Source: Pseudooceanicola marinus (GTDB lineage: Bacteria; Pseudomonadota; Alphaproteobacteria; Rhodobacterales; Rhodobacteraceae). Taken from it: a DNA stretch of 64,000 nt. Every line of letters starts with the position of its first letter. The first letter of the stretch is position 1. Of this stretch, positions 24,724 through 36,837 are shown piece by piece. The stretch spans positions 434,001-498,000 of the forward strand of contig NZ_PGTC01000010.1 of the NCBI RefSeq assembly GCF_002786295.1, written 5' to 3'. The notes under the pieces are model-generated. The model saw nothing but the letters and a program-made list of their open reading frames with translations. It ran no database searches and had not been told where the DNA came from. Both the position numbers and the translations under genes were made by a program.

Positions 24724-25610
24724 TTGGATTGGCTGACACAGCTACTTAGCCATGTTTCGTATTGGCTCCATTTTCCAATTGAATGGGTGCGGTCTGCGAA
24801 GATCCCCGTAGGGGACTGGGCCAGTGATTTCTTCGACTGGCTGAGGGACAATTTCGAGGGTGTCGTCGACATCCTGGCCAGCGGCGCCGAAAGCATGATC
24901 GACGGTCTGCTGTGGCTGCTGCAGGAACCGCCCGAACTGCTGGTGATCGCCGCCTTCGTGGCGCTGACCTGGGTGCTGCAACGCAACTGGAAGACCTGCC
25001 TCTTCGTGGCCGTGGGCTTCCTCTTCATCCTCAACCAGGACTACTGGGAAGAGACGACCGAAAGCCTGACGCTGGTCATGTCCTCCTGTATCGTCTGCAT
25101 GGCCATCGGGGTGCCCATAGGCATCTGGGCGGCGCACCGCCAGAAGGTCTATACCTTCCTGCAGCCGGTGCTCGACCTGATGCAGACCCTGCCGACCTTC
25201 GTCTACCTGATCCCGGCGATCGTCTTCTTCGGCATCGGCATGGTGCCGGGCCTGATCGCCACGGTGATCTTCGTCGTGCCCGCGCCGATCCGCCTGACCT
25301 ACCTCGGTGTCAGTTCCACCCCGACCCCGCTGCTGGAAGCGTCGGAGGCCTTCGGTGGCACCAAGTGGCAGACCCTGACCAAGGTCGAGCTGCCCTATGC
25401 GCTGCCGCAGATCATGGCGGGGCTGAACCAGACCATCATGCTGTCGCTTTCGATGGTCGTCGTCGCCGCCCTGGTGGGCGCGGACGGCCTGGGCGTGCCG
25501 GTGGTGCGAGCACTGAACTCGGTCAACACCTCGCTGGGCTTTGAATCGGGATTCGTCATCGTGGTGGTCGCCATCATCCTGGATCGCATGCTTCGCATCG
25601 GAGGTCGCAA

Positions 25611-25614
<4 letters not shown>
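24724..25614 (+). CDS. choW: Choline ABC transporter permease
   Basis: The inner-membrane permease of the choline importer, 296 residues with about six to seven transmembrane segments. The binding-protein-dependent transport domain occupies roughly residues 110-285, with the EAA-type loop EASEAFGGTKWQTLTKVELP that docks the ATPase. The N-terminal part (about 1-75) carries amphipathic and membrane segments typical of ProW-type permeases. The start is TTG at 24724, supported by AAGGAGG at 24711-24717. A strong Shine-Dalgarno with a weak start codon lies just downstream of the attenuator. The stop overlaps choV (ATGA). Confidence 0.93.
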
Positions 25615-26678
<1,064 letters not shown>

Positions 26679-26702
26679 ACCGCGCCACAGGCGGACCGCA
26701 AC

Positions 26703-26737
26703 GGACCCCGGCAGGCCTTCTGCCGGGGTCCTTTTTG
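26703..26737 (+). terminator. Strong intrinsic terminator of the cho operon
   Basis: A perfect 12-bp stem GGACCCCGGCAG / CTGCCGGGGTCC (26703-26714 with 26720-26731) with a 5-nt loop is followed by TTTTTG. Confidence 0.95.
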
Positions 26738-26766
26738 TTGGTTAGGTCTTCGTTACCCCCGCGTCC

Positions 26767-26772
26767 TATAGT
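26767..26772 (+). promoter_or_regulatory. Possible -10 element ahead of the sulfotransferase operon
   Basis: TATAGT lies 24 bp before the GTG start and 30 bp after the cho terminator. No good -35 hexamer is visible at the right distance, so this is a weak call; a promoter is nevertheless expected in this gap. Confidence 0.3.
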
Positions 26773-26795
26773 CCTGCGGGAGAGGGAGGAGCTGC

Positions 26796-28037
26796 GTGAA
26801 ACACGAAAGGACAGGGCGCCGGGCAGGGCATCAGGGGCTGCCCGCAGAAGCGGGGCAGGGGGCCGCGCGCCCGCGCCCGCGCCAGCCCACGCGACCGCGG
26901 GATTTCGGCTATTCCCCCCTGATGCCGCGGCTCTGGCACGGGATGACCTGGGGCGACTGGCGGGCCCTGTCGCGCGGGCAATGGGCGCGCTGTCGGGGCG
27001 ACCTGCGGCTTGGTCTCTATGCCTCGATCACGGCGCTCAGCCTGGGCAACTCGCTGATGCACGGGCTGGCCCAGCTGATCCACGGCCGCGCCCTGGCCCG
27101 GACCGAGATCAGCCCCGATCCGGTCTTTGTCCTGGGCTACTGGCGGTCCGGCACCACCTGGCTGCACCAGCTGCTGAGCTGCGATCCGCGCTTCTGTTCC
27201 CCGACCTCGTTGCAGGTCTTCATGCCCAAGAGCTTCTTGATGCTGCGCCACGTGATGCGGCCCCTGGCGCCGCTGTGGCTGCCCGGACGCCGCCCGATGG
27301 ACAACGTGGCGCTGGAGGCCGACAGTTCAGAGGAGGACGAGGTGGCGCTGCTGGTCGCTGGCGCCCCGTCGGTGATGCGGGGCATGGCCTTCGAGGACCC
27401 CAGGGCCCCCGCGATGACCGGTGACATCATGGATCTGCCCGAGGCCCTGCGCGCTGACTGGCATCGCCGCTGGCGCGAGTTCCTGACGGCGGTGCAGTAC
27501 CTGGCGCCGGGCCGGCAGCTGCTGCTGAAATCCCCGGCCCACACGATGCGCCTGGCTGAGGTGCTGCGCGCCTTCCCGCAGGCGCGTTTCGTTCATATCG
27601 TCCGCGATCCCTACGAGATCGCTCAGTCCAACATCCTGACCGCCGAGGGCATGACCGCCACCCAGACCCTGCGCCGCACCATGCCCGCCCGCGCCGACCT
27701 CGAAGACGGCGTATTCCGCGCCTTCAGGGCCTTTCATGAGGCCTTCGAGCGCGACCGCGCCCTGATCCCCGAGCGGCACTACACTTGCATCCGCTATGAG
27801 GATCTGCGCCGCGATCCGAAAGCTGTCATCAAGGGCGTTTACGACGCAATCGGGCTGGGCGAGGCCGATGCACTGGAGCCGGCCCTTGACCGAATGCTCT
27901 CGGCACGTAAGGGCTATAGGGTAAATGAATTTTCCATGGACCCGGCGCTGGAACGGCGGGTCGAACGGGACTGGGCGGCCTATTTTCGGCGCTACGGCTA
28001 TTCCCGGCGATCAGGGTGGATAACCGAAGACGAATGA
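26796..28037 (+). CDS. Sulfotransferase family protein
   Basis: A 413-residue PAPS-dependent sulfotransferase. The 5'-phosphosulfate loop is GYWRSGTTWLHQLL (114-127), and the 3'-phosphate site is in FVHIVRDPYEIAQSN (about 263-277). The rest of the sequence (SPTSLQVFMPKSFLM, then the late YTCIRYEDLRRDPK) resembles the bacterial Sulfotransfer_3 group, which acts on lipids, glycans or small alcohols. The first 45 residues are basic and proline-rich. The GTG at 26796 has GGGAGGA 5 bases upstream. Its stop overlaps the RND transporter start (ATGA), so the two are translationally coupled, suggesting that the transporter handles the sulfated product. The acceptor is unknown. Confidence 0.88.
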   Translation: MKHERTGRRAGHQGLPAEAGQGAARPRPRQPTRPRDFGYSPLMPRLWHGMTWGDWRALSRGQWARCRGDLRLGLYASITALSLGNSLMHGLAQLIHGRALARTEISPDPVFVLGYWRSGTTWLHQLLSCDPRFCSPTSLQVFMPKSFLMLRHVMRPLAPLWLPGRRPMDNVALEADSSEEDEVALLVAGAPSVMRGMAFEDPRAPAMTGDIMDLPEALRADWHRRWREFLTAVQYLAPGRQLLLKSPAHTMRLAEVLRAFPQARFVHIVRDPYEIAQSNILTAEGMTATQTLRRTMPARADLEDGVFRAFRAFHEAFERDRALIPERHYTCIRYEDLRRDPKAVIKGVYDAIGLGEADALEPALDRMLSARKGYRVNEFSMDPALERRVERDWAAYFRRYGYSRRSGWITEDE

Positions 28038-30316
28038 GCACCTCGGACCGGATTGCAGAGTTCATCCTGCGCCATCTCGTCAAGCTGACCCTGTTGGTCC
28101 TGGCTCTCGTGCTGGGGCTGGGGGTCGGGGTGTCGCGGCTCTCCTTCTCGGCCGACAACACGTCGTTCTTCGGCAAGGACAACCAGGAAAGCCGCGACCT
28201 GGCCGAGTTGTCGCAGCATTACGCCAGCGCCAGTGGCTTCCTCATCATGATCGTCCCGCCGGAGGGGGAGATGTTCGCCCGCCCGACGCTGGAGGCGTTG
28301 CGCGACATGACGTCGGACGCCTGGATGGCGCCCTATGCGCTGCGGGTGGATTCGCCGGCGAACTTCCCCCACAGCAGGGCCGAGGGGGACGACATCCTGG
28401 TCGAGCCGCTGCTGGACGAATGGGCCGAGATCACACCGGAGGTGGCCACGCGCTTCCGCGAGGTGGCCAGCACCAGCCCCGAGTTGCGCAACCGGCTGGT
28501 GGCCGAGGACCTGACCGCCTACGGCATCATGCTCAACGTGGTGCTGGGCGGGGACTTCGAGGCCCGGCGGGCCGAGCTTCTGGCCTACCTGGATGAGATG
28601 CGCGCCGACTGGGCCGAGCGCTATCCCGGTTTCGAGGTGCATGTGACCGGCGACGTCATCGGCGGGCTGACCCTGGCGCAGGCGGCGCGTGACGACATCA
28701 TGACCCTGGTGCCCGTCGCCTTCGTGCTGGTTCTGGGTCTCTTCCTCTACTTCCTGCGCTCGCCGATGGCGGTCATGGCTTCGGCGGTGGTGGTGCTGTC
28801 GGGCACCCTGGCCACCTTCGGCTTCGCTGGCTTCCTCGGGATCGAGCTGACGGCGGGCACGGCGATCAGCCCGATGGCGGTGATGGTGCTGACGGCTGCC
28901 TCTTGCATCCACATCATCCTCAGCTGGATCCGCGAACTGGACCACCTGGACGGCCCCGGCGCCGTGCGCCACGCGCTGGCCGGGAACCTGGCGCCGGTGC
29001 TGGTGACCACGCTGACCACCGCCATCGGCTTCCTCGGCCTGAACTTCGCCGAGGCGCCGCCGCTGCAGGACATGGGCAATATCGTGGGCTTCGGGCTGCT
29101 GATCGGTATGCTGGCCACTTTCACCATCCTGCCCCTGGGACTGCGGATGAGCCGGGCCAGGGGCGGCGACAGCCTGCCGCTGACCGTCGGCATGATGCGG
29201 CGCCTGGCGGAACTGGCAATCCGCTATCGCCGCGGCTGGTTGGCGGGCTTCGCGGCGCTGGTGGTCCTGTCGATCTTCGGTATCTTCCGCATCGGCTATG
29301 ACGACAGCCTGGTGCGCTATTTCGATCAGCGCTACGAGTTCCGCCGCGAATCCGACGAGATCCGGGCGCATCTGACCGGGTTGTCGAACCTGCAGTTCTC
29401 CTTCACCGCGCCGGAGGGTGGCTCGGTCTTCGAGCCGGACTTCCTGCGCGACATCGACCGGTTCACCGCCTGGATCGAGGCCCAGGACAACGTTGTCGGC
29501 GTCACCAGCATGACCCAGATCGTCAAGCGCATGAACATGAGCATGAACGGCGACGATCCCGCCTTCGCGCGGATCGCCGACAGCCGCGAGGCCAACGCCC
29601 AGCTGATGATGTTCTACGAGCTGTCGCTGCCCGTGGGGCTGGACCTGAACACGATGATCGACGTGGACCGGTTGCATACGCGGGTGGTGGTGCTGCTGCG
29701 CTCGGACCATTCGCACCAGATCCGAGACCTCGGCGATCGCGCTCAGGCCTGGATGGCCGCGAACACGCCGGCCACGACGGCGCGACCGGCCGGGATCTCC
29801 TACGGCTTTTCGACCGTATCGGAACGCAACAACTCGCAGATGCTGGCGGGGCTGCTGGTGGTCCTGGTTCTGGTGTCGATGATCATGATGGCGACGTTGC
29901 GCAGCCTGAAGATGGGGTTGATCAGCCTGGCGCCCAACCTGATGCCGGCGATCATCGCCTTCGGGATCTGGGGCATGACGTTCCGCGACGTGAACCTGGG
30001 CTCCACCGTGGTCACGACCATGACATTCGGCATCGTCGTGGATGACACGGTGCATTTCCTGATGCACTATCTCGACGGGCGGCGCCGGGGACTGGCGCCG
30101 CGCCCGGCGTTGCACGACACCTTCCGCGTCGTCGGCTCCGCCATCATCGTCACCTCGATCTGCCTGGCGGTCGGTTTCCTGACCATGGCCACGTCGGGCT
30201 TTGCCATCAACCAGCACCTGGGGGCGCTGACGGCCATCGTGATCGTGTTCGCGCTGCTGGCCGATCTTATGTTTCTCCCCGCGCTGCTGCTGACCCTCGA
30301 CAGGACCAAGGACTGA
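28034..30316 (+). CDS. RND superfamily transporter (MMPL family)
   Basis: A 760-residue MMPL/HAE3-like RND permease. It has one helix near the N terminus (about 20-38), a large periplasmic loop, a five-helix bundle (about 224-372), a seventh helix (about 400-420), a second periplasmic loop, and a second bundle (about 600-755). Repeats of the two halves are seen in ALAGNLAPVLVTTLTTAIGF and FRVVGSAIIVTSICLAVGFL. FGIVVDDTVHFLMHY carries the transmembrane acidic pair expected for proton coupling. Relatives move hydrophobic cargo such as hopanoids, sterols or glycolipids. The ATG at 28034 overlaps the sulfotransferase stop, and its own stop overlaps the next start (TGATG). Confidence 0.92.
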   Translation: MSTSDRIAEFILRHLVKLTLLVLALVLGLGVGVSRLSFSADNTSFFGKDNQESRDLAELSQHYASASGFLIMIVPPEGEMFARPTLEALRDMTSDAWMAPYALRVDSPANFPHSRAEGDDILVEPLLDEWAEITPEVATRFREVASTSPELRNRLVAEDLTAYGIMLNVVLGGDFEARRAELLAYLDEMRADWAERYPGFEVHVTGDVIGGLTLAQAARDDIMTLVPVAFVLVLGLFLYFLRSPMAVMASAVVVLSGTLATFGFAGFLGIELTAGTAISPMAVMVLTAASCIHIILSWIRELDHLDGPGAVRHALAGNLAPVLVTTLTTAIGFLGLNFAEAPPLQDMGNIVGFGLLIGMLATFTILPLGLRMSRARGGDSLPLTVGMMRRLAELAIRYRRGWLAGFAALVVLSIFGIFRIGYDDSLVRYFDQRYEFRRESDEIRAHLTGLSNLQFSFTAPEGGSVFEPDFLRDIDRFTAWIEAQDNVVGVTSMTQIVKRMNMSMNGDDPAFARIADSREANAQLMMFYELSLPVGLDLNTMIDVDRLHTRVVVLLRSDHSHQIRDLGDRAQAWMAANTPATTARPAGISYGFSTVSERNNSQMLAGLLVVLVLVSMIMMATLRSLKMGLISLAPNLMPAIIAFGIWGMTFRDVNLGSTVVTTMTFGIVVDDTVHFLMHYLDGRRRGLAPRPALHDTFRVVGSAIIVTSICLAVGFLTMATSGFAINQHLGALTAIVIVFALLADLMFLPALLLTLDRTKD

Positions 30317-31113
30317 TGCCCAGACGTTCCCTCTCCCACCTCCTCGCCGCGCTGGTGTTGCTGACCCTGCTTCCGGGACCGGCACTGGCGGAAACCGCAC
30401 AGGAGAAGGGCCGCCGCCTGGCCGCCCAGGTGGGGGTGGAGCCGGGGTTCCGCGACCAGTCGGTCTCGGGCGAGATGATCCTGACCACCGCCAGCGGTCA
30501 GACCAGCACCCGCCGCTTCAAGGCCCGCTCGGTGGAGACCGGTCCCGAGGAGGCGCGGTCCGTGCTGATCTTCGACTGGCCGGGCGACATCCGTGGCACC
30601 GCCCTGCTGACCCATTCCCACGGCGGCGGGCGCGACGACGACCAGTGGCTCTACCTGCCGGCGGTGTCGAAGGTTCGCCGCATCTCCTCGTCGGGGCGGT
30701 CCGGTGCCTTCGTCGGCAGCGAGTTCGCCTATGAGGACATGGTCGACCAGGACGTGGAGAAATACACCTATGCCTTCGTCTCGACCGGGGCCTGCCCCGG
30801 GGGCGGGCGCTGTGACATCGTCGACCGCTTTCCGACCGGCCGCTCCGCCTACAGCGCGCAGCGGCTTTGGATCGACGCCGGGCGCCACCTGATCCGCCAG
30901 GTCCAGTACTTCGACCGCCGCCAGGCCCATGTGAAGACCATGGTGGTCTCGGGCTACCGCCAGTACCAGGGCCGCTACTGGCGCGCGTCGCAGATGGTGA
31001 TGACCAACCACCTGACCGGCAAGGGCACGACGCTGACCTGGACGGACTTCCGGTTCAACCAGGGCCTGAAACCTGCCGATCTGACCGTCAACGCCCTGCG
31101 CCGGGGTCTTTAG
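30316..31113 (+). CDS. LolA-like outer-membrane lipoprotein-sorting protein
   Basis: A 265-residue periplasmic protein with a signal peptide (about 1-25, ending ALA). It matches the LolA-like family usually annotated outer membrane lipoprotein-sorting protein, with KARSVETGPEEARSVLIFDW, DDDQWLYLPAVSKVRRISSS and SEFAYEDMVDQDVEKYTY. This family is typically encoded beside MMPL/RND transporters rather than lolCDE. It is thought, from its LolA-type half-barrel fold, to carry hydrophobic cargo across the periplasm. It overlaps the RND stop by one base. A possible cysteine pair lies in ACPGGGRCDI. The cargo is unknown. Confidence 0.88.
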   Translation: MPRRSLSHLLAALVLLTLLPGPALAETAQEKGRRLAAQVGVEPGFRDQSVSGEMILTTASGQTSTRRFKARSVETGPEEARSVLIFDWPGDIRGTALLTHSHGGGRDDDQWLYLPAVSKVRRISSSGRSGAFVGSEFAYEDMVDQDVEKYTYAFVSTGACPGGGRCDIVDRFPTGRSAYSAQRLWIDAGRHLIRQVQYFDRRQAHVKTMVVSGYRQYQGRYWRASQMVMTNHLTGKGTTLTWTDFRFNQGLKPADLTVNALRRGL

Positions 31114-31352
31114 GCCCCGCCGGACCGGCCCTGCGGTGGGGTGGGCGACCTTCGCCTCGCACCGTTGCGCGCATGAACCGCGCCAAAAGGCGGCACTCGC
31201 GCGATCCGGACCCTGTTTGTGTGGCTTTGCTGCATCTGAGCCCCTGTCACGACGCCCCGGCGCGGTCCTGAGCCGGCCGGGCCAGCCGTCCCTGTGCCTA
31301 TGATCGGTGAACATAGTGATTCTTTTAATTTCCCGATTTCACGGAGTGTCAG

Positions 31353-32738
31353 ATGACGGTCTCTCTCCCTCTGCGCATGGCAGCCCCCGGCGCTGCGGCG
31401 CTTTTGACCTTTGCCGCCGGTTCGGCCCTGGCGCAGGAGGCTTCCTTCAACGCCAGCCTCAGCGCCGGGCTGCGCTACTACCCCGAAGACGGGCTTTATG
31501 CCGGCCAGTCCTCTTCCGGGGTGGAGGCCTTCGGTGAAATGACCCTGGGGGGAGAGATCGCCCTGGGCGCCGGTCGCCTGACCTTCGACCTGGACGGGAT
31601 CCTGGACAGCACCGGCACGCTGGACCGGGGCAATGTCGCCGAGCTGCATTATTCGCAAAGCTTTGGCGACTGGAGCCTGCTGGCCGGCTTCCACACCGAG
31701 AACTGGGGCGTGGCCGAAAGCCGGTCGGTGATGAACGTGATGAACCCGGTCGACGGCACCGACCCACTGGTCCAGGACACGCTGCTCGGCACGCCGATGG
31801 TGAACCTGAACTACCACAGCGGTATCGGCACCTTCAGCGCCTACGCGCTTCTGGGCTTCATCGAGCCGACCTTCCCCAAGGGCGACGAGGGCCGTTTCCG
31901 CTCGCTGCTGCAATGGGACCCGGACCGGGCCTACTATGATGAGGACCGGGACGCACGGAACGTCGACCTGGCGCTGCGGTACTCGGGCTACTTCGCACTC
32001 GGCAACGGCTCTCTTGACGTGCAGGCGACCTATTTCAACGGCACCAGCCGCGAGGCGCTGGCCATGCCGGGCTGCATCAAACCCCTCGGGCCGGTCAACG
32101 AGGCCATGTGCGATGCGATCAACGATGCCATCGCCGATGGGATCGCCCAGGGCGACCTGCCGGTCGACGCGGATGACTTCTGGGACACGATGGACGAGAT
32201 CATGACCGATGACCTGGCCAGCGCCCTCTCCGGGCTGCCGCCGGTCGCCGGGCTGATCCCCTACTACCGCAAGGTCGAACAGGTCGGGCTGTCGGCCGTT
32301 TATGCTCTCAACGACCTGCAACTGCGGGCTGAGGCCTCCTGGCATGATGTCGGGACGGAAGAGTACCTCTCGGCCGTGGTTGGCGGCGACTACACGTTCA
32401 ACGGGCTGGGTGGCGGGGACGGCGATCTGACCATGGTGATGGAATATCTCTACGATGATCGCGGAGCGCTGCAGCCGGCGACGGTCTTCGAGGATGATCT
32501 GTTCCTCGGCATGAACTATCGCCTGAACAACGCCAGCGATACCGAGGTGAAGCTGGGCGTCTTCCACGACATCAGCAGCGAGGCGCGTCTCTACACCCTG
32601 CGCCTGTCCTCGCGCCTGACCGATTCCAGCAGCTTCGAGGTCAATGCCAGCCATGCGACGACCACGGGCTGGAACGATCCGCTGGCCTTCATAAAGGACG
32701 ACAGCTTCGTCGAGGTGAAGCTGACCACCTACTTCTGA
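31353..32738 (+). CDS. DUF1302-like outer-membrane beta-barrel protein
   Basis: A 461-residue protein with a signal peptide (about 1-27, ALA|QE). Alternating beta-strand patterns continue to a C-terminal aromatic (LTTYF), the signal for outer-membrane barrel insertion. The segment MNVMNPVDGTDPLVQDTLLG, with GWGV-like NWGVAESRSV before it, resembles the NP.D region of DUF1302 barrels that co-occur with RND transporters and LolA-like proteins. A helical, acidic insert (about 225-275) interrupts the strands. There is a 239-bp gap from the LolA-like gene, with TATGAT at 31299 as a possible -10, so it may have its own promoter. Proposed role: the outer-membrane end of the export path. Confidence 0.75.
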   Translation: MTVSLPLRMAAPGAAALLTFAAGSALAQEASFNASLSAGLRYYPEDGLYAGQSSSGVEAFGEMTLGGEIALGAGRLTFDLDGILDSTGTLDRGNVAELHYSQSFGDWSLLAGFHTENWGVAESRSVMNVMNPVDGTDPLVQDTLLGTPMVNLNYHSGIGTFSAYALLGFIEPTFPKGDEGRFRSLLQWDPDRAYYDEDRDARNVDLALRYSGYFALGNGSLDVQATYFNGTSREALAMPGCIKPLGPVNEAMCDAINDAIADGIAQGDLPVDADDFWDTMDEIMTDDLASALSGLPPVAGLIPYYRKVEQVGLSAVYALNDLQLRAEASWHDVGTEEYLSAVVGGDYTFNGLGGGDGDLTMVMEYLYDDRGALQPATVFEDDLFLGMNYRLNNASDTEVKLGVFHDISSEARLYTLRLSSRLTDSSSFEVNASHATTTGWNDPLAFIKDDSFVEVKLTTYF

Positions 32739-32922
32739 TCCATCCAGCTCGCGTGGTGTCGGCCCCCGCGATTCGGGCTGGGGCTGCCCTGTGCCGGGTC
32801 TTCCGGTCCGCCTCGGCGACTGGATCGACTTTTCCGGGTTTATGACTGCTGCCTTCAGCGCAATTGATGTCCCGTTAAACGTCTCTTCCTAGGCTGCGCC
32901 CGTTTCAGCGAGGGAGAAACAG

Positions 32923-34128
32923 ATGCCTTTCAGCCGGATTCTGCGCGCCATCCTCATGGCGGTGCTGCCCGTGCTCATGCCCGCGGGCGTGGTACGGGCC
33001 GAAGAGGGCGTGACCGCCGACAGCGTCACCTTCGCCCAGGTCGCGGTGCTGGACGGGCCGGCGGCCGCGCTCGGCCAGGGGATGAAAGCGGGGATCGAGG
33101 CCGCCTTTGGCGAGGCCAATGCCTCGGGCGGCGTGCACGGGCGACGGGTGCTGCTGGAAAGCCAGGATGACGGCTATGAACCCGACCGTTCGGTGCGGGC
33201 GGTGAAGGCCGTTCTGGCCCGCAACGATGCGATTGCCCTGATCGGCGCCGTCGGCACGGCGACCTCCACCGCGGCCCAGCCGGTCGCGGCCCAGGCGCAG
33301 GTCCCCTTCATCGGGCCGCTGACCGGCGCCGGGGCCCTGCGGGAGCCAGGTCGCGGCAATGTCTTCAACCTGCGGGCCAGCTATGCCGCCGAGACGGAGG
33401 CCTGGGTGGCCTACCTGGTGGATGACCTCGGCCTGTCGGAGATCGGCGTGCTCTACCAGGACGACGGCTTTGGCCGCAGTGGCCTGGACGGCGTGACCCG
33501 CGCCCTGGCCGAGCGAGGCAAGGCGCCCGTGGCCCAGGGCAGCTACATCCGCAACACCACGGCGGTGAAGACCGCGCTGCTGACCCTCCGCAAGGCCCGG
33601 CCACAGGCGGTGGTGATGGTCGGGGCGTCGAAACCCGTGGCCGAGTTCGTACGCCTGTGCCGGATGCTGGAGTTCACCCCGACCTTCGTCGCGATCTCCT
33701 TCGGCGGTGACGGGCTGGTGGCCGATCTCGGCCCGGAGGGGGAGGGGCTGATCGTCAGCCAGGTCGTGCCCTATCCGGGTGATCGGTCGCTACCGCTCGT
33801 CGCCCGTTACCAGGCAGCGTTGGCCGCTCATGCGCCTGGGGTCGACCCCGGATTTGTCTCCCTCGAAGGCTACATGGTCGGGCGCCTGGCCCTGACCGCG
33901 CTTCAGGCCGCGGGCCGCGACCTCAGCCGGGCCGCGCTGCAATCGGCGCTGGAAGGGCTGCGGTTGGTTGATCTGGACGGGCTGAGCCTGACCTTCGGTC
34001 CGGATGACAATCAGGGCATGGACCAGGTGTTCCTGACCCGCGCCGGTCCGGACGGGCAGTTGCACCCGCTGGCCACCGGCGCGGAGACGGAGGCCGCGGA
34101 GAGTGAGACCGGGGGCGACAATGGCTGA
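32923..34128 (+). CDS. Periplasmic binding protein, branched-chain amino acid type
   Basis: A 401-residue type I binding protein (Peripla_BP_6 family) with signal peptide 1-26 (VRA|EE). Family features are TFAQVAVLDGPAAALGQGMK, LLESQDDGYEPDRSVRAV, IGAVGTATSTAAQPVA and ISFGGDGLVADLG. Livestock-type transporter partners (livHMGF) are absent. Instead it lies 78 bp from a chemoreceptor gene on the same strand, so it may serve as a ligand-presenting sensor component rather than an importer part. The last 15 residues are acidic and likely flexible. The ligand is unknown. Confidence 0.9.
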   Translation: MPFSRILRAILMAVLPVLMPAGVVRAEEGVTADSVTFAQVAVLDGPAAALGQGMKAGIEAAFGEANASGGVHGRRVLLESQDDGYEPDRSVRAVKAVLARNDAIALIGAVGTATSTAAQPVAAQAQVPFIGPLTGAGALREPGRGNVFNLRASYAAETEAWVAYLVDDLGLSEIGVLYQDDGFGRSGLDGVTRALAERGKAPVAQGSYIRNTTAVKTALLTLRKARPQAVVMVGASKPVAEFVRLCRMLEFTPTFVAISFGGDGLVADLGPEGEGLIVSQVVPYPGDRSLPLVARYQAALAAHAPGVDPGFVSLEGYMVGRLALTALQAAGRDLSRAALQSALEGLRLVDLDGLSLTFGPDDNQGMDQVFLTRAGPDGQLHPLATGAETEAAESETGGDNG

Positions 34129-34206
34129 TCGGTGTCAGGCAGCCCCCTTGTTTGGCGGCGCCGGCCATCTGGATGGAAGCTGTGTCTGGGTGCCCAGGGG
34201 ATGGTG

Positions 34207-36837
34207 ATGTCTCTTGTCAGGCGCGTGACGGGGTCGATCGGCACCAAGGTCACGCTGATACTCCTGGCCATGGCGGCCACCACCGCCGTGGGTGGCGCCA
34301 CCGCTTTGATGGTGTTTGACCGGATCGCGCGGGACATGGACCGGCTGACCGGCGAGATGCTGGTGCAGGTCGAACACAGCGCGGAGCTGATCGGCGCCGC
34401 CGACCTGGCCCGGGACACGGTCACCCGGACCCTCCTGGCCGCCACGCCCGAGGCGTTGGAAGAGGCGCGCGCAGACACCGCTACGGTCCTGTCGCAGCTG
34501 GAAAGACGTATCTCCGCCCTGCCGCCTGACGCGGCGCACGACCTGGGCCCGGCCTTCGATGAGGTGTCGGCCGGGCTGCGACGCCTTGCCGACAGCCGCG
34601 CGGCGACCTTTGCCAGCGAAGCCCGTATAGACGAGTTGATCCTGGATCTGCAGACCCAGATGGGTGCGATGCAGCGCGGGTTGGTGGAACTGGCCGACGA
34701 CGCCTATTTCGATGTGGTGCTGCGGGGGGAGGAAACCATGGCCTCGGTCGCCGGAACGCTGCAGAGGCTGTCGGAAGAAGGGTTCGCCGTCGTCAGCGCG
34801 GTCCTGGAAACGCGGGCGGACCTAAACCTGCTGACCGGGCTGGCCCTGGCCGCCGGCGCCAGCGCCAGCCCGGGCGAGGCGGCGATCCTGCGCGACCTGG
34901 CGCAGGCGGCGAGAGGGCGCCTCGATCAACGGCTGGAAGAGCTGGCGGACAACCCCGCCGTTGCCATGCCCGGGGCGCCGATCCGCGAGGCGATGGCCGT
35001 CTTCTCCGCCGCCATCAACAGCGGCAGGGTGGCCGCCGACAGCCTGCGCGGCGAGGTCCTCGCGGCGCGTCAGTCCAGCGATGTCGTGCTGGCGATCGCC
35101 GTAGATGACCTGCTGTTTGACCTGACCCTGGGCGCCGAGGCCGCCAGTGCCGAGAACGGCGCCACGATCCAGGGTTTGCTGGACGAGGAATTCGGCTTCC
35201 TGATGGACCTGGTGGTGCTGAACGGCGCCCTGGGCGACTTCGCCGCCGCCGCGCTGCAGATCGTCAGTGGCGCGGACGCTGACGCGGTCGGCGTGGCAGC
35301 CGATGCCCTGCGCAGCGCCGCGGGGCACTTGTCGGATCGGCGCGATCTTCAGGACGGGCGCATCGCCGGCGAGGTCGACCGGCTGGTCGCCCTGGCCGCG
35401 CCCGACACCGGTCTTGCGGCGGCGCGCCTCGCCACCCTTTCGGCGACAGCAGACGCCGAGGCGGCCTCCATCGGGGCGGTGGATCGGGTCATCGCGATTG
35501 CCGAGCGGGCCGCCGAACTTGGCGCCGACAGCCGCGATCAGATCGACAGGATGGCTGAGACGATCACCGAAGACGTGGCCGGCGCGGGCCGCCGCATGCG
35601 GGACATGGCCCTGGCCTCCGCCGGGGTGCTGGTGCTGGCCCTGCTGCTGACCTGGGCGCTGATCCTGCGTCCCCTGGGCGCGATCAGCCGCACGACGGAA
35701 CGTCTGGCCGGGGGGGACCTTGGCCCGGTGACCGGCTTCGACCGGCAGCATGGGGAGGTCGGGCGCATTGCGCGGGCGCTGAAGATCTTCCGCGACGGGC
35801 TGGTGGAACGGGCCGAGGTCTCCCGCGCGGCGGAGGCCGAACGCGAGGCCCGCCGACAGGAGCAGGAGGCCATGATGGCCCTTCTGGCCCGCGCGCTGGA
35901 ACGGCTGTCTGCCGGGGATCTGACCGTGCGCATCGGCACCCAGATGCAGGGCGGCTACGCCAAGCTGCGGGATGATTTCAATGCCGCCGTGGAAACCCTG
36001 GAGGCCTCGGTGCGCAGTCTGGCGACCAGCGGCCAGTCCATCGCCGGGGCCAGCTCCGAGATCACCAATGTCTCGCGCGAACTTGCGGCGCGGTCGGAGC
36101 AGACAGCGGGGACCCTGGCCGCGACTGCGCTATCGATCGACAAGCTGTCGGCGTCGATCTCCGACACCGCCCAGGCCTCGGGCGAGGCACGGGACGCGGC
36201 CACACGGGCGCGCCTTCGGGCCGACGAAAGCGTCAGCGTGGTGCATCAGACCATCGGCGCGATGGAACAGATCCGCAGTTCGTCGAAGAAGATTGAGCAG
36301 ATCATCGACATGATCGAGACGATCACCTTCCAGACGAACCTGCTGGCGCTGAACGCCGGGGTTGAAGCGGCGCGGGCGGGCGAGACGGGACGCGGCTTTG
36401 CCGTGGTCGCCAGCGAGGTGCGCGCCCTGGCGCAGCGGTCCAAGGAAGCGGCGGAGGAGATCACCGGCCTCGTGCAGGAGAGCCGACGTCAGGTCGACGT
36501 GGGCTTCGACCTGGTCAGCCGGGCCAGGGGCACGATCGAGGATATTTCCGAGACGGTCGGCATGGCCACAGGGCTGATGGCGTCGATCTCCGACGCGGTG
36601 GTGAAGCAATCCTCGAACCTGAGCGACATCAACGCCTCCATGTCCAGCCTCGACGAGGCGACGATGAAGAACACCGCGATGCTGGAGGAGGTCTCCTCGG
36701 CCAATGTCGCGTTGAACGAAGAGGCGCAGGGCATGGCCGGGGCCATTGCCCAGTTCAAGGTGACGCTGGACGGGGCGGCGGCCCATTTCGATACCGGGCT
36801 CGGGACCTGCGACGGGCGAGCGGCGCAGGTCGCCTGA
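34207..36837 (+). CDS. Methyl-accepting chemotaxis protein
   Basis: An 876-residue chemoreceptor. A transmembrane helix (about 13-33) is followed by a roughly 430-residue alanine-rich helical periplasmic region, much longer than the common four-helix bundle, then helix two (about 467-486), a HAMP domain and a second HAMP-like stretch ([20 protein letters not shown]). The methyl-accepting signalling domain follows, with the conserved tip [20 protein letters not shown] near 700. There is no C-terminal CheR pentapeptide; it ends GRAAQVA. The start is the ATG at 34207 with AGGGG 6 bases upstream; 34201 and 34132 are alternatives. Pairing with the binding protein upstream suggests indirect ligand sensing. 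Confidence 0.93.

Follow-up and report, generated by a model that had tools for sequence, protein, structure and literature searches.

A sulfotransferase-RND-LolA-barrel gene cassette in Pseudooceanicola marinus: a probable partial cluster for the sulfation and export of a polyketide-chain lipid

A 64,000-nucleotide stretch of the Pseudooceanicola marinus genome (contig NZ_PGTC01000010.1, positions 434,001 to 498,000; here referred to as the window) contains, on its plus strand, a cassette of four genes whose products are a sulfotransferase (STF), an RND/MMPL pump, a LolA_like carrier and a predicted outer-membrane barrel, encoded in this order and with the first three genes tightly coupled. 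We propose that these genes probably belong to a six-gene cluster dedicated to a sulfated lipid with a polyketide chain, in which they account for sulfation and export; the other two members encode a polyketide synthase (PKS) and a stand-alone condensation-fold acyltransferase. Such lipid-type genes are found beside the cassette in relatives and, judged by gene content, make a sulfated, exported amphiphile more likely.

The STF gene (26796..28037; 413 amino acids [aa]) starts with a GTG codon, preceded by GGGAGGAG, and overlaps the ATG of the pump gene (28034..30316; 760 aa) by ATGA. The pump gene in turn overlaps the LolA_like gene (30316..31113; 265 aa) by TGATG, and the barrel gene (31353..32738) encodes 461 aa ending in LTTYF. 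A first-pass annotation of the window had listed these genes, overlaps and C-terminal residues, as well as a terminator on the choV side, and all are present. It had also named a PAPS-type sulfotransferase (PAPS, 3'-phosphoadenosine 5'-phosphosulfate), an RND/MMPL transporter and a LolA-like protein, and here Pfam scores above the cut-offs bear it out. STF matched Sulfotransfer_3 (8.9e-33) and has the fold and PAPS-binding motifs of a PAPS-dependent sulfotransferase, with RSGTTW, KSPAH and RDPYEIAQS intact. The families matched were PF13469, PF00685 and, weakly, PF17784 only, and STF is thus not a trehalose sulfotransferase of the Stf0 type. The inner-membrane pump matched MMPL (PF03176) over two stretches (4.5e-26; 92 bits against a cut-off of 20.5), which places it among the MMPL/RND proteins; it has 10 hydrophobic segments at a strict threshold, and its best NCBIfam score was for HAE3-like proteins, under the cut-off. 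The LolA_like protein matched PF17131 (1.3e-50; 172 bits against a cut-off of 30), has the hydrophobic, signal-like N terminus of a periplasmic carrier and has 3bk5, 9tp6 and 4z48 among its solved relatives. The fourth product, described earlier as a DUF1302-like barrel, remains a barrel but not a DUF1302 protein: no Pfam family was matched at an E value of 0.01, and the fold model (mean pLDDT, 87) predicts an outer-membrane barrel of the OprD/AlgE type with a signal-like N terminus and a C-terminal aromatic residue.

The order STF-RND-LolA-barrel recurs at nine loci, namely, those of the window's own genome (G000) and of G303, G298, G312, G308, L025, G064, G239 and G277. In all nine, the STF and RND genes overlap or lie no more than 13 bp apart and the RND and LolA genes overlap (starts chosen mechanically); with the same order found nine times, chance gene order was rejected as an explanation. 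Within the genus, STF occurs in 5 of 22 genomes, each time with the RND, LolA and barrel genes. Across 295 genomes of the family, where at most six (STF), eight (LolA) or two (PKS) candidates were scored per genome and weak or second matches can escape, STF was found at 1e-20 in 10 genomes, and in four of these (the window, G277, G064 and G239) the RND, LolA and barrel genes follow directly downstream. LolA was found in 23 family genomes at 26 places, 4 of which are the cassettes. One more four-gene locus, L025, was found in a named genome collection, among the best 80 of 565 STF loci; these 80 are mostly from Planctomycetes, many on short contigs, and the other 79 lacked the RND, LolA and barrel genes, although one of them, L036, has a 30% PKS match about 8 kb away. 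A class-wide search of 385 genomes for an STF-type match (E value of 1e-40, at most four candidates scored per genome) returned the window's own genome only. Mirror distances among the four genes correlate with a rho of 0.94 to 0.98 (36 pairs, shared species ancestry uncorrected). On an RND tree of 24 rows, three of them long branched and from which G209 and loci lacking an RND frame of 700 to 1110 aa had been dropped, the nine cassette RNDs form a fully supported branch together with two PKS-linked RNDs from Sulfitobacter and one PKS-less RND, the place of G239 within this clade not being fixed. These data support the conclusion that the close STF clade travels with the RND, LolA and barrel genes. 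Natural RND-LolA fusions of 1061 to 1103 aa were found in three family genomes (L137, L138 and L144), and such single polypeptides would fit a direct hand-over from pump to carrier. A further database protein, P0270, has PKS domains joined to half a LolA domain; the frame or the assembly may be at fault here, and the protein was set aside.

A PKS and a stand-alone condensation-fold acyltransferase are encoded at seven of the nine loci, and at six of these (G298, G312, G308, L025, G064 and G239) their genes lie directly upstream of the STF gene. At the seventh, G277, the PKS is divided between two contig ends and the Condensation protein is encoded downstream on the opposite strand; in G308, the PKS is divided between two contigs and the acyltransferase frame is interrupted. 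Where whole, the PKS has 2535 to 2592 aa, and the Condensation protein, where unbroken, has 451 to 482 aa. The L025 PKS has the domain order KS-AT-DH-ER-KR-ACP, followed by a C-terminal Condensation-like part, and for its residues 15 to 2151, the best solved relative is mycocerosic acid synthase (MAS), with an E value of 1.3e-288 and 964 bits, compared with 668 for the next protein. All four whole copies (G312, G298, L025 and G064) contain KS, AT and ACP motifs, and three contain a DH-type motif, G298 being the exception. The catalytic HHxxxD motif is present in all seven stand-alone Condensation proteins. Among the 295 family genomes, PKS matches of at least 48% identity were confined to G064, G239 and G277; these are all of the family genomes with a cassette besides the window, which supports a linkage between PKS and cassette. 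The protein database agrees: 12 of 30 STF rows with contigs of at least 12 kb share a contig, as judged by equal contig size, with a close PKS row, compared with a mean of 0.017 in a control with shifted sizes (46 STF rows used, among 120 matches listed of 1093 found). A related set, PKS-MMPL-LolA-galE-barrel, is carried by two Sulfitobacter plasmids (NZ_CP085169.1 and NZ_CP085145.1; L179 and L180), with identities to the cluster of 43% (PKS), 46% (RND), 48% (LolA) and 30% (barrel), and a PKS of that strain is called mycocerosic acid synthase-like in one source. Both sets adjoin a gene annotated as BapA prefix-like.

We infer the substrate, chemistry and direction of transport of the full cluster, partly from predicted folds, as follows. 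The MAS-like iterative PKS would make a long, reduced acyl chain, which the acyltransferase, by means of its HHxxxD motif, would transfer to an acceptor. STF would then add sulfate from PAPS, the RND pump would extract the resulting amphiphile from the inner membrane, the LolA_like protein would ferry it across the periplasm, and its delivery to the outer membrane, or passage through it, would be the task of the barrel. In the lineage of the window, the PKS and acyltransferase genes would have been deleted and the remainder kept by selection, probably serving a lipid made elsewhere, with sulfation hinging on the supply of PAPS.

Several observations weigh against this proposal. The PKS and acyltransferase genes were not found beside the cassette in the window or in G303, no Condensation match was found in the G000 genome, and an adenosine 5'-phosphosulfate (APS) kinase was not found in the G000 assembly. 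None of the PKS copies shows HHxxxD in its C-terminal part, and the 55 solved matches of the acyltransferases are chiefly condensation domains of nonribosomal peptide synthetases (NRPS) and not PapA. The Sulfitobacter sets resemble the cluster in their PKS, RND, LolA and barrel genes but include galE and gave no STF or acyltransferase match; sulfation is therefore not integral to the module, and STF is an optional part of a broader set of genes for PKS products and their export. G184, whose RND belongs to the clade of the cassette RNDs, has SnoaL-like and AsmA genes alongside and no PKS match. The first-pass annotation had looked to conservation of the sulfotransferase with the pump in relatives, which holds for the close clade but not beyond it: the six other family genomes with an STF (about 30 to 38% identity) had no RND, LolA or barrel match at 1e-4 in the 16.9 to 20 kb fetched, and 19 of the 22 LolA places outside the cassettes were fetched and had no STF match at 1e-8 (the G133 contig starts inside or just before LolA and that of G227 shortly before it, so that the upstream genes of both are out of view). 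Its suggestion of sulfated-lipid export is thus strengthened for the family, by the seven loci with PKS and acyltransferase, but its complete path from inner to outer membrane for a sulfated molecule in the window lacks these two enzymes and, in the assembly, the APS kinase.

The absence of the PKS and acyltransferase genes from the window is best read as a loss. The window and G303 RNDs nest among those of PKS-bearing loci (nested branches with support of 97/96 to 100/100), which makes a single loss the simplest account and, by parsimony, would point to one deletion beside choV. The corresponding junction (26679..26795), where congeners have the two genes, contains the choV terminator (26703 to 26731; a 13-pair hairpin and a T run) as well as the ribosome-binding site of the STF gene. 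The distance between the end of the choV match and STF is 121 bp in both the window and G303 (for the window, 117 bp when counted from stop codon to start codon), and about 405 to 424 bp lie between choV and the PKS match in G298, G312 and G308. Inspection by eye shows a hairpin behind choV not only in the window and G303 but also in G298 and G312, where the T run is weaker. Relocation of the PKS within G000 was considered and rejected, the other large PKS, on contig C9, being about 33% identical (first 1000 residues, best piece) and part of a capsule-like locus. This locus (C9:411197-426164; L166 and L167) encodes a second iterative PKS, GT2 proteins, an aminotransferase, a UDP-galactopyranose mutase and a Capsule_synth protein, and its G303 copy also encodes a glycosyltransferase with a weak, below-cut-off galactofuranosyltransferase match. 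A PKS of this second kind is present in 6 of 22 genus genomes (5 of 5 with STF and 1 of 17 without). The five STF species cluster on a choV tree with support of 80/80 (21 of the 22 genomes, G300 having no choV match); common descent explains the co-occurrence, and it was therefore not used as evidence.

Without their PKS and acyltransferase, the four genes could be a decaying remnant that has no substrate and is on its way out. The absence of the two genes beside the cassette in G000 and G303, of any Condensation domain in G000 and of an APS kinase in its assembly fits this view, as does the ratio of nonsynonymous to synonymous substitution rates (dN/dS) between the window and G303, which is highest for STF, at 0.161, compared with 0.066 (RND), 0.069 (LolA) and 0.071 (barrel) (Nei-Gojobori method, own script). 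We nevertheless consider decay unlikely. All four frames are open in both species, the cassette values lie within the range of four flanking genes (choW, 0.182; choV, 0.043; periplasmic binding protein, 0.135; chemoreceptor, 0.131), and STF outpaces RND in divergence in three PKS-bearing pairs too. The four genes are under purifying selection, with STF constrained least. Together with the open frames, this suggests that the cassette probably remains functional in this strain, acting on a lipid that is made elsewhere.

The supply of PAPS is a separate matter. An APS kinase is encoded in seven of eight cassette-bearing genomes examined (the L025 genome was not among them), the exception being that of the window, where PAPS may in consequence be missing. 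In G303, the gene lies on a plasmid-like contig of 55 kb (G303:C18; L243, L293 and L294) with cysD-cysNC-cysQ type genes and a Sulfotransfer_2 gene. For the stretch of this contig that holds a ParA-like gene and its neighbour, the best match is a plasmid of Pseudooceanicola algae that has ParA/ParB-type genes, and PAPS supply may be plasmid-borne in the G303 species. The G000 assembly (4.5 Mb, 99.66% complete, 30 contigs, with the window on C10) was checked for gaps by using 20 kb at both ends of its large contigs and its small contigs whole, a total of 49 stretches and 742,066 bases. A 20-kb region of G303 around cysDNC gave no blastn match to these stretches at 1e-20, the first 54 kb of the 55-kb contig gave no blastn match and weak translated ones only, and no APS kinase match was found in them. 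A plasmid of the G303 type is probably either absent from G000 or present but unassembled. Unless the plasmid is missing from the assembly, the sequenced strain is incapable of sulfation, which also counts against our proposal.

Among the other readings, efflux of a toxic hydrophobic compound that STF would tag, as proposed for the AmeABCD monoterpene transporter of Castellaniella, seems improbable. Like the cassette, the Ame system includes an HAE3 RND, a LolA-superfamily protein and an outer-membrane protein; the LolA_like protein has, in addition, a weak match (25.7 bits against a cut-off of 23.1) to DUF1329, the AmeB family. In Ame, however, the outer-membrane protein is of the DUF1302 family and is accompanied by a DUF1329 protein and AmeC, and the accessible text of PMC6394551 names no STF or PKS. 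The cluster clade, by contrast, mostly occurs with a PKS and an acyltransferase of its own, the barrel gave no match to DUF1302, and none of the four products reads as AmeC-like.

It is less probable still that STF makes a sulfated quinone or another housekeeping lipid for export by the RND, as mycobacterial Stf3 acts on menaquinone. Some STF homologs are labelled omega-hydroxy-beta-dihydromenaquinone-9 sulfotransferase, and a cytochrome P450 gene directly follows three distant family STFs (L019, L020 and L021; 35 to 38% identity), reminiscent of the operon that stf3 shares with cyp128. The cassette has no P450 gene, and in relatives a PKS and an acyltransferase stand alongside instead. The solved relatives of STF include the CurM and Ols sulfotransferases, and PMC5577590 describes the sulfotransferase-thioesterase of haliamide. 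The least likely reading is that STF acts as in CurM and olefin synthase, activating a beta-hydroxyl of the PKS-bound chain so that decarboxylation yields a terminal alkene and no sulfated product leaves. Elsewhere in G000 there are three more Sulfotransfer_3 matches (C24, C10:109849 and C15; L002 to L004). Near relatives of the window proteins are in part labelled Oceanicola or Pseudooceanicola, and Pseudooceanicola sp. 200-1SW has a barrel (P0128) with 74% identity; one protein 95% identical to STF (P0005) is labelled Ferrimonas balearica, perhaps wrongly.

The closest parallel to a cluster for a sulfated polyketide-chain lipid is the mycobacterial sulfolipid-1 pathway, in which Pks2 is MAS-like and Stf0 is a sulfotransferase family of its own. 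The roles of its components (Stf0, Pks2, PapA1/PapA2 and MmpL8) are described in PMC9989471. By gene kinds, that pathway, like the full cluster, combines a MAS-like iterative PKS, a condensation-fold acyltransferase, a sulfotransferase and an MMPL-family exporter. The cluster differs in having a sulfotransferase of another family (Sulfotransfer_3), an RND that scores best, below cut-off, as HAE3-like, and an added LolA_like carrier and outer-membrane barrel. Its MAS-like PKS adjoins the cassette in seven of nine related loci but not in the window or G303, and the stand-alone HHxxxD Condensation protein of the relatives, with solved matches that are chiefly NRPS, has no counterpart in the window genome. 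The BstABC sterol transport system of Methylococcus is likewise proposed to deliver a lipid by way of an RND, a periplasmic protein and an outer-membrane-associated one (PMC10942540); BstB is of the phosphonate-binding type (PF12974) and not LolA, and the system is tied to sterol genes. None of the four cassette proteins matched PF12974. HpnN, the hopanoid transporter, is also an RND for lipid cargo and is the second-best NCBIfam match of the window RND, which stays under its cut-offs (TIGR03480, 100.1 versus 751.85; NF052374, 20 versus 1100). Literature searches joining sulfotransferase, PKS and MMPL with Rhodobacteraceae or with condensation domain found no paper, and one joining PKS, MMPL and LolA found, by title, nothing but alkane degradation; preprints and most subscription papers lie outside these searches, so that this is weak evidence.

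Regarding the surroundings of the cassette, one promoter-like site was found in 25500 to 34500, on the minus strand (0.8 expected), and an Rfam scan gave no matches. Six terminator-like sites were found, compared with 3.3 expected (standard deviation, 2.3), so that only the hairpin at 26703 to 26731 is distinguished, by its strength. Downstream (32923-36837) lie genes for a periplasmic binding protein and then a chemoreceptor of 901 aa, and in each of the genus's five species with STF, relatives of one or both lie downstream of the cassette.

To our knowledge, little is understood of how hydrophobic lipids other than lipopolysaccharide and lipoproteins get to the surface of Gram-negative cells. 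Tentatively, and as a broader idea that we hold with less confidence than the proposal for the four genes, it is conceivable that in marine Rhodobacterales one operon is the double-membrane counterpart of the mycobacterial sulfolipid pathway, serving to make a polyketide-chain lipid, sulfate it and, through pump, soluble carrier and dedicated barrel, bring it to the surface, and that some lineages lose the lipid-making half and keep the rest for a different lipid, a PAPS-making plasmid acting as the switch for sulfation. If our proposal is true, gene kinds combined much as in the sulfolipid pathway occur outside mycobacteria as well, a class of marine sulfated lipids is predicted, and a compact operon that unites synthesis, sulfation, RND export and LolA-type carriage with a barrel of its own would offer a tractable model.
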